DNA of 64,000 nt from Amyelois transitella (taxonomy: Eukaryota; Arthropoda; Insecta; Lepidoptera; Pyralidae): NCBI RefSeq assembly GCF_032362555.1, contig NC_083534.1:2651001-2715000 (forward strand). Reading direction: 5' to 3'. Each line of letters opens with the position of its first letter. The first letter of the stretch is position 1. Of this stretch, positions 404 to 43,919 are shown piece by piece. Below the pieces are notes generated by a model. That model had not been told where the DNA came from. It did not search any database and saw only the letters and a program-made list of their open reading frames with translations. The position numbers and the translations under genes were made by a program.

Positions 404-1743
404 CTCCATGATACTCGTAGGCCAGCCCCACCACCTGCAGCGACCACATCTGTCATTGTATCTCTAGAGGAGGTTCCAGAAGCCTGCGCGCACTGACCTG
501 CCGTTGAAGTTCCACTCGTAGGCCAGCCCCGCCACCTGCAGCGACCACAGCAGTCATTGTATCTCCAGAGGGTTCCAGAAGCCTGCGCGCACTGACCTGC
601 CGTTGAAGTTCCACTCGTAGGCCAGCCCCACCACCTGCAGCGGCCACAGCTGTCATTGTATCTCTAGAGAGGGTTCCAGAAGCCTGTGCGCACTGACCTG
701 CCGTTGAAGTTCCACTCGTAGGCCAGCCCCACCACCTGCAGCGGCCCCAGCACTCATTGTATCTCCAGAGAGGGTTCCAGAAGCCTGCGCACACTGACCT
801 GCCGTTGAAGTTCCACTCGTAGGCCAGCCCCGCCACCTGCAGCGACCACAGCTGTCATTGTATCTCTAGAGAAGGTTCCAGAAGCCTGTGCGCACTGACC
901 TGCCGTTGAAGTTCCACTCGTAGGCCAGCCCCACCACCTGCAGCGACCACAGCTGTCATTGTATCTCTAGAGAAGGTTCCAGAAGCCTGTGGACACTGAC
1001 CAGACGTTGAAGTTCCACTCGTAGGCCAGCCCCACCACCTGCAGCGGCCCCAGCTGTCATTGTATCTCTAGAGAGGGTTCCAGAAGCCTGCGCACACTGA
1101 CCTGCCGTTGAAGTTCCACTCGTAGGCCAGCCCCACCACCTGCAGCGACCACAGCTGTCATTGTATCTCTAGAGAGGGTTCCAGAAGCCTGTGGACACTG
1201 ACCAGCCGTTGAAGTTCCACTCGTAGGCCAGCCCCACCACCTGCAGCGACCACAGCTGTCATTGTATCTCTAGAGAGGGTTCCAGAAGCCTGCGCACACT
1301 GACCTGCCGTTGAAGTTCCACTCGTAGGCCAGCCCCACCACCTGCAGCGACCACAGCACTCATTGTATCTCTAGAGAGGGTTCCAGAAGCCTGCGCACAC
1401 TGACCTGCCGTTGAAGTTCCACTCGTAGGCCAGCCCCACCACCTGCAGCGACCACAGCACTCACTGTATCTCTAGAGAAGGTTCCAGAAGCCTGCGCACA
1501 CTGACCTGCCGTTGAAGTTCCACTCGTAGGCCAGCCCCACCACCTGCAGCGACCACAGCACTCATTGTATCTCTAGAGAGGGTTCCAGAAGCCTGCGCAC
1601 ACTGACCTGCCGTTGAAGTTCCACTCGTAGGCCAGCCCCACCACCTGCAGCGACCACAGCACTCACTGTATCTCTAGAGAAGGTTCCAGAAGCCTGCGCA
1701 CACTGACCTGCCGTTGAAGTTCCACTCGTAGGCCAGCCCCACC
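404..1743 (-). repeat. 101-bp tandem array carrying the DCAF1 exon-15 donor site, 13 copies
   Basis: The CGTTGAAG word recurs at 502, 601, 702, 803, 904, 1005, 1106, 1207, 1308, 1409, 1510, 1611 and 1712, so the period is 101 bp (first step 99), with a decayed partial unit on the left. Read on the minus strand, each unit is about 44 bp of exon end (coding [15 protein letters not shown] in the true copy) plus the GTCAGTG donor and about 57 bp of intron. The rightmost unit is the real exon 15 end. Copies differ by only a few bases, which points to recent or homogenised expansion. Confidence 0.95.
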
Positions 1744-41149: not shown

Positions 41150-43919
41150 CTAGCTACTGTACCGTGGTCTGCCTGGCCGGCGTCCGGGGCGTCTGCGGCG
41201 GCGGCGCGAGCACCGTCTCCGACTTCTGCAGCCGCACTGCCGCACTCTGTAGTGGCGGTCACCACACCGGCAGCGTTTGAACCGCCCAGATCTGCTACGG
41301 CATTGGCTAAAGATGGACATTAAACAGGCATGTAACTACACAATAACTTAAATGAAAGATATATGCTTTAATAAATGGAGGGAAAAGTGACTTGATGCTG
41401 GTATCGCGGGTTTAGTTAGGGCTTGTCAACAGCAGAATCTTAATTCCATCACAAAGCCAAACAGCTGAGGCATCGGCTTAAGATGGAGATTAAACAGACA
41501 TGTAACTACACAATAACTTAAAAGATAGATGCTTTAATAAATGGAGGGAAAGGTGACTTGAAGCTGATATCGCGGGTTTAGTTAGGGCAGCAGAATCTTA
41601 ATTCCATCACAAAGCCAAACAGCTGAACGTGGCCTTTCAATATTTTTAAGACCGATGGCTCTGCCTACCCCGCAAGGGATATAGACGTGACTATATGTAT
41701 GTATGTATGTTATCAACAGCCAAAACCAATGGACGGGTTTAGGTTAAAATTTGGCATATGTACCTACATATGGATCAGGTTAAAGGAATCCGCTCAGTAA
41801 ATTCCCGAAGGAGCGAACAGGGACTTTTTATCCATTCATTACCCTTCATGAAGGTTAAGGTAATCATGTAAGGTTATTAAGGGCAGCTAGTCTGGAGTCT
41901 GGAACTAATCTTTCACTGTAACGTCCACTACTTGATCATTCAAGTAGTGTAGTTCAATTCCATCATTAAGACATATAGCTGAACGTGGCCTTTCAGTTTT
42001 TTCGAGACTGTTGCCCGTTCGTGCGGGATAAATACCGTGATTGCATGTATGCACGTTTGTCAAGATCATCGTCCAACTTTTCCATTTACACTCGCCTTGT
42101 AGTTAAATAAATATCGTATAGGTACATATATGCCTCTCTCATCTCTGCGAGTTCCCGGTTGCACCCTCCACAGAAGTGTTTCGGGACCCGGGGTCCGCCT
42201 TCCGACTTCTCTCTCCACTTGGTCCGGTTTTCGGCGTACTCGGATTTCAGTCTATTGGCTCGCATATACCTACCTAATCTTGCGCGACGTCCATCTACAT
42301 ATATAATCTACTAGCTTTCCGCCCGCGGCTTCGCCCACGTGTAATTCGGTTATATATAGCGTTTTTTAATGATCTCGACAGTACAGACAGTTGAAGTATA
42401 GTAGTTAGGAGTTGAAAGAAAATTCTTACGAAGTTATACGTACATGTGAGGCTATTAGGTTGACCTGATAATAAAAAGTAGGTAAATCTCATTAACGTTA
42501 AGAATTTAGGTGAAAATGGATGCGGACAAATTTCGTAGCTGTTTGTATGGGTAGTGTTAACACAAAATAGGGATTTAAAGGCGTGATGTTATTAATGTTA
42601 TGCATGTATGTACATAATTATGTATGTTATTATGTATGTTAAAGAGACGACTGAAAGTTGTCATACAAAGTCTTTTTTTTAAGGATGGGAAATCATCAAA
42701 TGACCTCTCCCGCTCTGGGTGGAACGGAAGGGAGTGTCAGACTTTTACTGACTAAAACCCACCTCGTTCCTTCAGTTGCCCTTTGCGTTCCGGGGCCACG
42801 GTATCTCGTTAGAACTTTCCCGCAGCCCCGGCTCAGTTTATCCCGTTTCCCCCCCTTGGGGGTTGACATTTCAAAAATCCCTTCTTAGTGCTCACTTATG
42901 TTACTAAAGGAACCTCTGTTCAAAATCTCAGACTCCTATACCGAGCGGTTTCGGCTGTGCGTTAATAAATCAGTCACCCAATCGCACCCCCTAAATCACG
43001 ATTGGAGGGTAGTTTGAAAAAACTTATAATGTCAAACATATTTACTTGCCTATGTACGTGTTCATGCCAAGTTTCAAGTTTATAAACCCAAGGAATAAGA
43101 TTTTTCATAGAAACGTTTTTACCCCTTTTCCCCCCCTTGGGGATTGAATTTCCAAAAATCCTTTCTTAGTGCTCCCCTACATATCCCAAGGAACCTACAT
43201 TCCAAATTTCAGCTGTCTACGACCAGTAGTTTCGACTGTGCGTTGTCTGTCAGTCAGTCACTCAGTAACGGAAGAGTTTTATATATATAGATTGTAGGTA
43301 TCTTTATACGTATTTTATTTAACTATTTAACCTTTTTTTATATTCTTTGGTGAAGTGTTGATTACTTACAACTATTGCTTCATTTCACTCGAACGTACGT
43401 ATATTCCTTAAGTGCCTATGTTTAGATATATAGAACTTTGTAGATAATACCTACTTACTAGGTACTAAGTAGGTATTTATAAGGAAATCTAACTTACGTT
43501 TTGCACATCCTGAAAGCAAAATAAATAAACATCAGTTTTCTCAATGAATTTTCTTCTAAAATTACCCTTTAATTAGTGCTTAAAATCTACCATTTGATAA
43601 AATAATAAAAGTGGTTCTGTACTGTAAAGCTGTACAAAATTTTATCGTATTTATTTCCTTCGCTCGTTCGGTTCGCGTTTAGGAATTTTTAGCTTTTCCA
43701 TGAATAATGTCTTCATGCTCTCGCCATGAAAATCCCTAGGTTAAATGGATATTATGACCATTAATAATGTTTTTAGTTTGTAATTTAGAATAGTTTTTTT
43801 TTATTATTATTAAATAATTAATTTTATGACCATAATTTACTTGACTACGAAATACTTTATCAGATAGTTACAATAAGAGAGGTAGGAACTTACTTTCGCC
43901 TTCGCCGACATCTTGCCAT
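41150..43919 (-). CDS. Protamine-like Arg/Cys-rich small protein, form A (64 aa)
   Basis: Three coding exons: 43919-43894 (26 bp), 43509-43498 (12-bp micro-exon) and 41306-41150. The product starts MARCRRRRKMCKTQC, continues RSRSGRFKRCRCGDRHY and ends with an Arg run and GRPRYSS: 64 residues, 27 Arg, 3 Lys, 8 Cys. Splice sites are good: AA/GTAAGT; GCTTTCAG/GATGTGCAAAAC/GTAAGT; CATCTTTAG/C. The first ATG (CAAAATGGC) opens this frame; the later ATG (MSAKAK...) meets a stop at once in exon 3A. High Arg plus Cys, an SRS-type motif and small size are what sperm-nuclear protamines look like, so DNA compaction in sperm is inferred. I do not recognise a named lepidopteran orthologue. A 5' UTR intron is possible (acceptor TTTTACAG at 43933). 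Alternative: chance Arg-rich frame in GC-rich DNA, made unlikely by the conserved second copy and phase agreement. Confidence 0.6.
41300..41600 (-). repeat. ~170-bp tandem duplication at the protamine-like exon-3A acceptor
   Basis: 41300-41460 and 41470-41600 share GGCATTGGCTAAAGATGGAC / GGCATCGGCTTAAGATGGAG, TGTAACTACACAATAACTTA, CTTTAATAAATGGAGGGAAA and ATCGCGGGTTTAGTTAGGGC. The second copy repeats the acceptor position (41476 versus 41306). Confidence 0.85.
41590..41711 (+). mobile_element. Family A fragment with tail
   Basis: CCATCACAAAGCCAAACAGC to CCCGCAAGGGATATAGACGT and (TATG)n. A second degenerate copy is at 41950-42055. Confidence 0.7.
42120..43290. other. Protamine-like intron 2, dispersed repeat remnants
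   Basis: Includes CTCTGCGAGTTCCCGGTTGC (also near 27265), a CTAGCTTTCCGCCCGCGGCT terminus at 42312, and an old element around 42675-42890 (GATGGGAAATCATCAAATGA, GGAACGGAAGGGAGTGTCAG). None has a usable frame. Confidence 0.55.

Follow-up and report, generated by a model that had tools for sequence, protein, structure and literature searches.

Growth and change of introns are commonly put down to mobile elements. A 64-kb stretch of the genome of the pyralid moth Amyelois transitella (NC_083534.1, positions 2,651,001 to 2,715,000; the whole stretch is referred to below as the window, and positions are counted from its first base) raises the question of whether introns may be lengthened from the ends of their own exons. 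In several genes of the window, tandem repeats span an exon–intron border and carry further copies of the splice site, with adjoining exon sequence, into the intron. We found that such repeats contain a junction far more often than expected from junction density, both in the window and in other genes of the same genome, and that the differences among their copies point to the working exon edge as a conserved master.

Exon–intron border arrays in the window

The window is part of contig C30 of an assembly of 327 Mb in 33 contigs. Three genes were rebuilt exon by exon, namely DCAF1 (minus strand, 1708..13601; 15 exons in the window, continuing beyond base 1), NSE4 (plus strand, 15572..20486; seven exons), and CCDC186 (minus strand, 23741..39427; 14 exons in a complete open frame with a stop). 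All three models had GT/AG at the joints and an open frame throughout. A first-pass annotation had claimed eight splice-junction repeats in four genes. Seven of them, in DCAF1, NSE4, and CCDC186, were recovered by Tandem Repeats Finder (TRF), self-BLAST, and reading of the sequence. The eighth, placed at 41.3 kb in a protamine-like gene, did not hold: TRF and sequence reading identified an intron-only repeat without exon sequence (41299..41626, minus strand, 166 bp × 2) that ended ~4–7 nucleotides (nt) before a putative acceptor.

The working borders inside the repeat units were the donors at 1708, 18392, 26533, and 33305 and the acceptors at 5439, 12422, and 24681, each of which is predicted from frame and conservation to be functional. 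The units were arranged head to tail and were tens of bases or more in length, as in minisatellites and other tandem arrays (TRF and self-BLAST), and alignment identified them as the exon–intron sequence of the host gene itself.

In DCAF1, the donor array at 413..1752 on the minus strand was built from a 101-bp unit (~45 nt of exon end and 56 nt of intron start) with the donor after 1708. TRF counted 13.3 copies (95%), corresponding to the working copy and 12 exported copies, all 12 of which kept GT. The acceptor array at 5413..6603 (minus strand; TRF and self-BLAST) had an ~86-bp unit (~59 nt of intron end and 27 nt of exon start, the exon starting at 5439) and comprised 14 acceptor copies, the working one and 13 exported ones, with AG kept in 13/13. 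A smaller duplication at 12408..12473 (minus strand, 32 bp × 2, ~17 nt of intron and 15 nt of exon) contained the exon 2 acceptor at 12422; its copies were 100% identical according to TRF, and it was also found by alignment.

The NSE4 exon 5 donor (after 18392) was duplicated at 18246..18573 on the plus strand as an ~142-bp unit that was mostly exon (TRF, self-BLAST, and alignment). A third copy at 18834..18938, also on the plus strand, matched 18284–18388 with 97% identity in self-BLAST and was split from the other two by sequence resembling the dispersed short repeat of the window. In CCDC186, where all cases were on the minus strand, the exon 12 donor (26533) belonged to a TRF array at 25658..26657 with a 152-bp unit (~117 nt of exon and 35 nt of intron). 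Its seven copies were the working one and six exported ones, the last truncated; GT was kept in 6/6, and copies 5 and 6 contained a stop codon. The exon 7 donor (33305) was in an array of diverged copies of ~141–158 bp at 32929..33398 (TRF, self-BLAST, and alignment). The exon 13 acceptor (24681) was duplicated at 24668..24760 (44/50 bp × 2), where direct alignment showed 14 nt of exon and 29 nt of intron to be identical and a 6-nt gap; this case was absent from the TRF and self-BLAST lists and was hence in no enrichment test. An additional case was a decayed copy of the exon 3 donor (36187–36221 vs. the working 36471–36505; self-BLAST, 35 bp, 88.6%). The two members of this pair were separated by other sequence, including a 19-bp TRF array at 36300–36413, and do not now form a contiguous tandem repeat.

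The statement of the first-pass annotation that few other tandem repeats exist was roughly right: with microsatellites and dispersed-repeat pairs set aside, the retained intron-only rows in the three genes were a 31-bp minisatellite (29853..29931, minus strand, TRF) and a 59-bp repeat (33540..33662, minus strand, TRF; self-BLAST 80%), both of which are counter-examples to a border location. The arrays made up 4,080 of the 28,631 intron bases of the window genes (14.3%), and the suggestion that introns can be lengthened in this way from the ends of exons is supported as a description.

Border arrays in other genes

As the window is where the pattern was first noticed, a second set was built from the same genome. 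Exons of myosins, adaptins, and cullins were located by Pfam searches, which gave 13 genic stretches (128 kb) chosen before repeats were seen, plus 30 smaller myosin loci. Nine border cases were found in this set, all on the donor side. They were a 58-bp unit in six copies at L011 (1115–1462), a myosin array of 150 bp with 18 donor copies in all at L042 (5998–8574), a 153-bp repeat at L043 (5543–5879, L043a) with more decayed copies deeper in that intron, one old copy at the same locus (3495–3664, L043b), a 118-bp unit in 2.8 copies at L046 (7388–7716), two older single copies at L047 (980–1109 and 1568–1892), a 129-bp unit in 6.2 copies at L053 (6650–7452), and an ~116–128-bp unit in three copies at L055 (8265–8659). 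The exons of three of the nine (L046 and L047 twice) were not among the Pfam hits used for choosing the stretches; one of these exons had an IQ motif, and two had no Pfam match and were recognised by reading. In direct alignment, the rows for L043b and for the decayed exon 3 case (CCDC_I3) contained self-matches only, and the latter case rests on self-BLAST. A further repeat, at L011 3516–3843, was set aside at first; on reading, it was a tenth, old donor copy, and it was counted as a hit in no test.

With these cases included, the exon part of the unit ranged from 8 nt (L011) to ~140 nt (NSE4) and the unit from 32 to ~180 bp, the decayed 36-kb pair aside. The copies differed widely in age, from 100% identity (12408 and L011 1115) to ~76% (L047 1568) and 72% (L011 3516).

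Two other arrangements of myosin exons were observed. At L042:200–560, an apparent inverted myosin exon start with ~10 bases of upstream intron was located between two dispersed-repeat copies; this border-spanning fragment was ~8 kb from its source exon and was moved and inverted, not tandem. At L040:6187–7555, four consecutive myosin exons matched nearly the same profile range (~362–436) and represent older whole-exon duplications, unlike the border arrays. This row resembles the mutually exclusive exons that are well known from muscle myosin.

Enrichment at exon–intron borders

We scored whether each repeat with a unit of 30 bp or more contained a junction and derived the expectation from junction density. 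The 44 merged repeat rows were reduced to 22 (nine in the window and 13 elsewhere) by setting aside 13 with matches in five or more other sources, one of low complexity (window 10582), three from redundant loci (L016, L019, and L035), and five others (L011 3516, L049 8016, L050 5997, window 41299, and window 42837). L011 1115 was included in the 13 from elsewhere, although it came from the list of Pfam loci and not from the 10-kb stretches.

Over the 34.2 kb and 67 junctions of the window genes, seven of nine retained rows contained a junction vs. 1.77 expected (P = 1.3e-4), and six of eight did so without the decayed 36-kb pair (P = 3.1e-4). In the second set, the count was 9/13 vs. 2.7 expected at the junction density of the window (P = 1.3e-4); at doubled density, it had P = 0.03. 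Leaving out the three exons that were not Pfam hits gave 6/10 vs. 1.9 expected (P = 0.004). When the sets were pooled and the 36-kb pair was left out, 15/21 rows contained a junction vs. 4.1 expected (P = 1.5e-7), and counting as misses six set-aside rows (the five others above and the contiguous L041 9926) gave 15/27 vs. 6.4 expected (P = 1.7e-4). The best fit to the pooled odds was ~12-fold; weights up to 4 were rejected (P = 0.016) and a weight of 6 was not (P = 0.11). The earlier remark that the concentration at exon edges looks non-random is thus supported, including in gene regions picked before repeats were seen. No TRF array with a unit of 30 bp or more was detected in four random 10-kb stretches, where self-BLAST pairs were few, or in the last 20 kb of the window, from 44 kb onward.

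Each exon end was also compared with its own flank and with foreign flanks, using a 99% null and a reverse-strand control. In the window, 7/67 edges were above the null vs. 2/67 on the reverse strand, and 5/34 window donors had a local copy of their own exon end. Among Pfam-located exons, 8/76 donors and 1/75 acceptors were above the null vs. 2/151 on the reverse strand. Six of the eight donors included exon bases, whereas the L054 repeat only abutted its donor and the L042 edge at 9464 looked like an AT-rich chance match. The L055 acceptor was scored as none, as its Pfam match spans two stop codons and its repeat is AT-rich. Over both sets, copies were present at 12/115 donors vs. 3/113 acceptors (P = 0.03), or at 11/115 donors without L054 (P = 0.05).

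Variation among the copies

The exon part of the exported copies was less diverse than the intron part in the DCAF1 arrays at 413 (DCAF1_I15, 0.019 vs. 0.076) and 5413 (DCAF1_I9, 0.035 vs. 0.074), in CCDC_I12 (0.069 vs. 0.232), and in the myosin array L042 (0.012 vs. 0.048). L011 had no diversity in either part, and a spurious match accounted for one of the three exported sites compared for CCDC_I7.

Between the working exons and their copies, 28 of the 45 unique differences affected the third position of a codon (P = 6.8e-5 for an expectation of one third), and 27/45 were synonymous. The share at third positions was 6/6 in L043a, 5/5 in L055, 4/4 in L047a, and 8/13 in CCDC_I12. Three copies with less than 85% ungapped identity, the CCDC_I7 array, and L047b were left out of this count. 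If the copies had simply decayed without constraint, about a third of the differences would be expected at third positions. The excess is most simply explained if the working exon was copied on separate occasions, or in different allelic forms, so that many of the changes accumulated under selection on the protein.

Immediately beyond the high-identity block, decayed exon sequence was detected at P < 0.05 in four of the eight arrays that could be tested (nine were tried). In these four (CCDC_I12, NSE4, L043a, and L046), decayed upstream-exon sequence continued past the block, as would be expected after exchange of the working edge with an older copy.

Proposed mechanism and alternative explanations

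We propose that each array starts with a local tandem duplication of DNA straddling an exon–intron border. Splicing would continue to take place at the copy contiguous with the exon body (the first donor or the last acceptor), and the extra copy would be tolerated because splicing hides it in the intron. The working exon edge, held constant by selection on the protein and on the splice site, would act as a master. As the variation among copies suggests, unequal exchange of this master, or of another allele of it, with older decayed intronic copies may re-expand the array repeatedly. As an outcome, introns would grow from exon ends, mostly downstream of donors, and exon edges appear to be preferred sites for the origin or persistence of the starting duplications. 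What was observed directly is the arrays with their junctions, the enrichment, the recurrence in other genes, and the pattern of copy variation, and to the account as a whole, in which border duplications are hidden by splicing and re-expanded from a working edge, we give slightly better than even credence. Unit lengths, of which 5/16 were divisible by three (six with a unit of 141 bp for CCDC186 exon 7), showed no excess of multiples of three, and we rejected selection for in-frame exon extension, against which the stops in some copies also speak.

Several results weigh against this account. The strict replication, restricted to family-search exons in the 13 stretches, gave 5/12 (P = 0.012), and the five further Pfam exons of L056 had no array. 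A sliding-window scan for direct repeats within 800 bp (score 30) gave 11.2% for introns, 9.8% for junctions, 8.3% for exons, and 7.0% for random and intergenic sequence; the classes were not separated, in part because windows internal to arrays were classed as intron and because a large number of AT-rich matches only just passed the cut, and the scan provides no confirmation. As for diversity, the exon part was the more diverse in the two-copy comparison of L055 (0.086 vs. 0.029 in the intron part), diversity in L053 was exonic only (0.0036 vs. 0), and the intron values of CCDC_I12 and L042 were inflated by a truncated last copy. The third-position result was weak against an expectation of 46%, a rough figure of our own (P = 0.021), and was carried by four of nine arrays. 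NSE4 (two synonymous and five nonsynonymous differences) and L046 (two and four) did not fit the codon pattern; the dropped L055 copy 1 had several nonsynonymous changes, and nonsynonymous differences exceeded synonymous ones in two of three rows of the old CCDC_I7 array that was left out. The contrast between multi-copy and two-copy arrays was not significant (Fisher P = 0.18).

The account has to be weighed against one without any junction-linked mutation, in which duplication is even along genes, duplications internal to exons are purged, and those spanning a junction are detectable for longer via their one constrained copy. Constraint of this kind accounts for the reduced diversity of the exon parts and for the excess of third-position differences, and it is consistent with the intron-only duplications that do occur (29853, 33540, L043 6484, L048 5174, L054 6264, and L042 3674). 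We simulated it by holding one copy constant. With arbitrary parameters, detectable array time rose 1.1- to 2.1-fold across the 18 settings, and the time spent as a multi-copy array rose 1.2- to 3.6-fold in 11/12 exchange settings and 10.8-fold in one. The 1.1- to 2.1-fold gain is to be compared with the fit of ~12-fold, in which weights up to 4 are rejected, and we consider constraint alone unlikely, if not lightly dismissed. Because the simulated gain falls short of the fit, a bias at exon edges seems needed, and such a bias in the origin or retention of duplications is likely.

The bias may be mutational. The junction itself could be a hotspot of staggered breaks whose repair duplicates 30–180 bp, for example, where transcription passes from a GC-rich exon to an AT-rich intron (through R-loops, polymerase pausing, or a nucleosome edge), and the exons of the window genes did have a higher GC content than the introns (0.535 vs. 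0.384). The excess over the simulated effect of constraint argues for a hotspot, as do the bias toward donors and two intron-only repeats (window 41299 and L054 6264), each with one end only a few bases from a junction. However, the donor bias could equally reflect that splicing tolerates extra donors better than extra acceptors, and the L055 acceptor above the null was counted as none. We regard the hotspot as a real possibility that is somewhat short of even. A hotspot confined to exons was rejected, since exon parts of just 8, 14, and 15 nt occur, which makes the border, and not the bulk of the exon, the common element. Methylation-driven repair at exons was rejected because exon CpG was not depleted (observed/expected 1.01), and a dispersed element was rejected because the window units had no match in the other sequence examined.

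Retention of the copies by selection because exported splice sites or exon pieces are useful (for alternative isoforms or as splicing insurance) would explain why GT or AG was kept in every exported copy of the diversity comparison and why differences were synonymous in AdL043a (6/6), in one CulL055 copy (5/5), and in CCDC_I12 copy 1 (five, the boundary codon aside). However, the copies were found via a match to the splice-site core, which favours kept sites, and the old copy at L047 1568–1892 reads TT at the donor GT position. Stops and gaps in copies and the unit lengths (5/16 multiples of three) also stand against usefulness, and a constrained master gives the same pattern, so we consider it improbable. 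Still less probable, to the point of being nearly negligible, is an assembly artefact. It could affect copy numbers such as that of L042, where TRF counted 17 copies and 16/17 exported copies were 99–100% identical to the working copy. However, copies differ in the 413 and 5413 arrays, decayed and truncated members occur, the NSE4 copies are interrupted, and an assembly error is not expected to favour exon edges in unrelated genes.

Returning to arrays re-expanded from a working edge, we tentatively suggest a wider claim, about which we are more doubtful than hopeful: this lineage may have a junction-linked duplication process that exports exon edges, such that a sizeable part of its introns is self-built and the working edge is an evolving master fed by alleles.

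Comparison with known systems

Zhuo et al. are said to have described, in 2007, introns arising from tandem arrays in human genes; the likeness is by title alone. A close case is the potato RNA-dependent RNA polymerase (RdRp) gene, in which a tandem duplication runs across an intron–exon border (PMC4974935). Likewise, the unit appears to contain the functional border in seven of the eight claimed repeats and in the nine cases outside the window. The potato case is described as one two-copy event that made a new intron, whereas the present arrays affect several genes, contain as many as 18 copies, belong mostly to donors, and were not seen to create an intron at a new position.

In the model of Rogers, an exon segment bearing AGGT duplicates in tandem and an intron is gained, with cases in ATP2A1, fission yeast, and TOUCH3 (PMC4974935); Table 1 of PMC3443670 gives 188 events of intron gain by tandem duplication in seven lineages. 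The likeness is that tandem duplication repeats the splice sites and splicing hides a copy, and in the fission yeast case the intron covers several tandem copies (PMC4974935). The difference is that duplication within an exon makes a new intron, whereas here the border of an existing intron is in the unit and that intron lengthens. Novel introns formed by tandem duplication were also described in Drosophila (PMC2891723), likewise an insect, through exonic duplication and subsequent intronization of one copy; the arrays described here still have their copies, many of them almost identical. Introners resemble the arrays in being a source of intron sequence across many genes but insert copies of themselves into many genes (PMC9860276), whereas the window units matched nowhere else in the sequence examined.

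Specifically, the units at 413, 5413, 12408, 18246, 25658, and 32929 had no matches in the other sequence examined. When the genome was searched with a 501-base query from the DCAF1 array and 40 of 927 candidates were scored, seven of the 47 listed matches were at the home locus; the other 40 were in query bases 434–501, outside the unit. The arrays are also distinct from duplicated or mutually exclusive exons, as alignments showed that the exported copies hold one exon edge only. Tandem duplication as a source of introns is known. For border-anchored arrays at this density, we found no report, only single-gene or within-exon cases, in a search that left subscription journals and preprints mostly uncovered.

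Other features of the window

The identity of DCAF1 is supported by the match of an 81-amino-acid piece to human DCAF1 in PDB (E 8.7e-5), and that of NSE4 by the Pfam domain Nse4_C (E 3.1e-27). A Pfam search of the C-terminal 568 amino acids of CCDC186 gave no match, and its name is that of the first-pass annotation only. Relatives of DCAF1 were sought in viral contigs and none was found. Three DCAF1 donors have a microsatellite (GTAT/TATG/TA) that starts at the donor or no more than ~10 bases from it (11189–11335, 5244–5267, and 10582–10774). Two inverted repeats, nearly perfect and with ~25–30-bp arms, were seen by eye in a DCAF1 intron (~6897–6967) and between DCAF1 and NSE4 (~13971–14038).

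The region of the protamine-like gene contains a 78-bp duplication, 79% identical, at 40843–40919 and 41161–41238. Three short GCCGAA hexamer arrays are located within 1.5 kb, at 44312–44385 and 45731–45756. The dispersed short repeat (approximately cgtctatatcccttgcggggtagacagagcc) recurs widely, in the window, L041, and L048, with 73 matches for one L041 piece. It is probably a short interspersed nuclear element.

Significance

About one in ten of the donor edges sampled has a nearby duplicate of the exon end to which it belongs (5/34 in the window and, among Pfam-located exons, 8/76 above the null, six of them with exon bases). If this holds genome-wide, border duplication would be a countable source of intron length, cryptic splice sites, and annotation errors in an assembled genome. 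The excess at donors would then make it possible to test directly whether duplication is shaped by splicing or by transcription.

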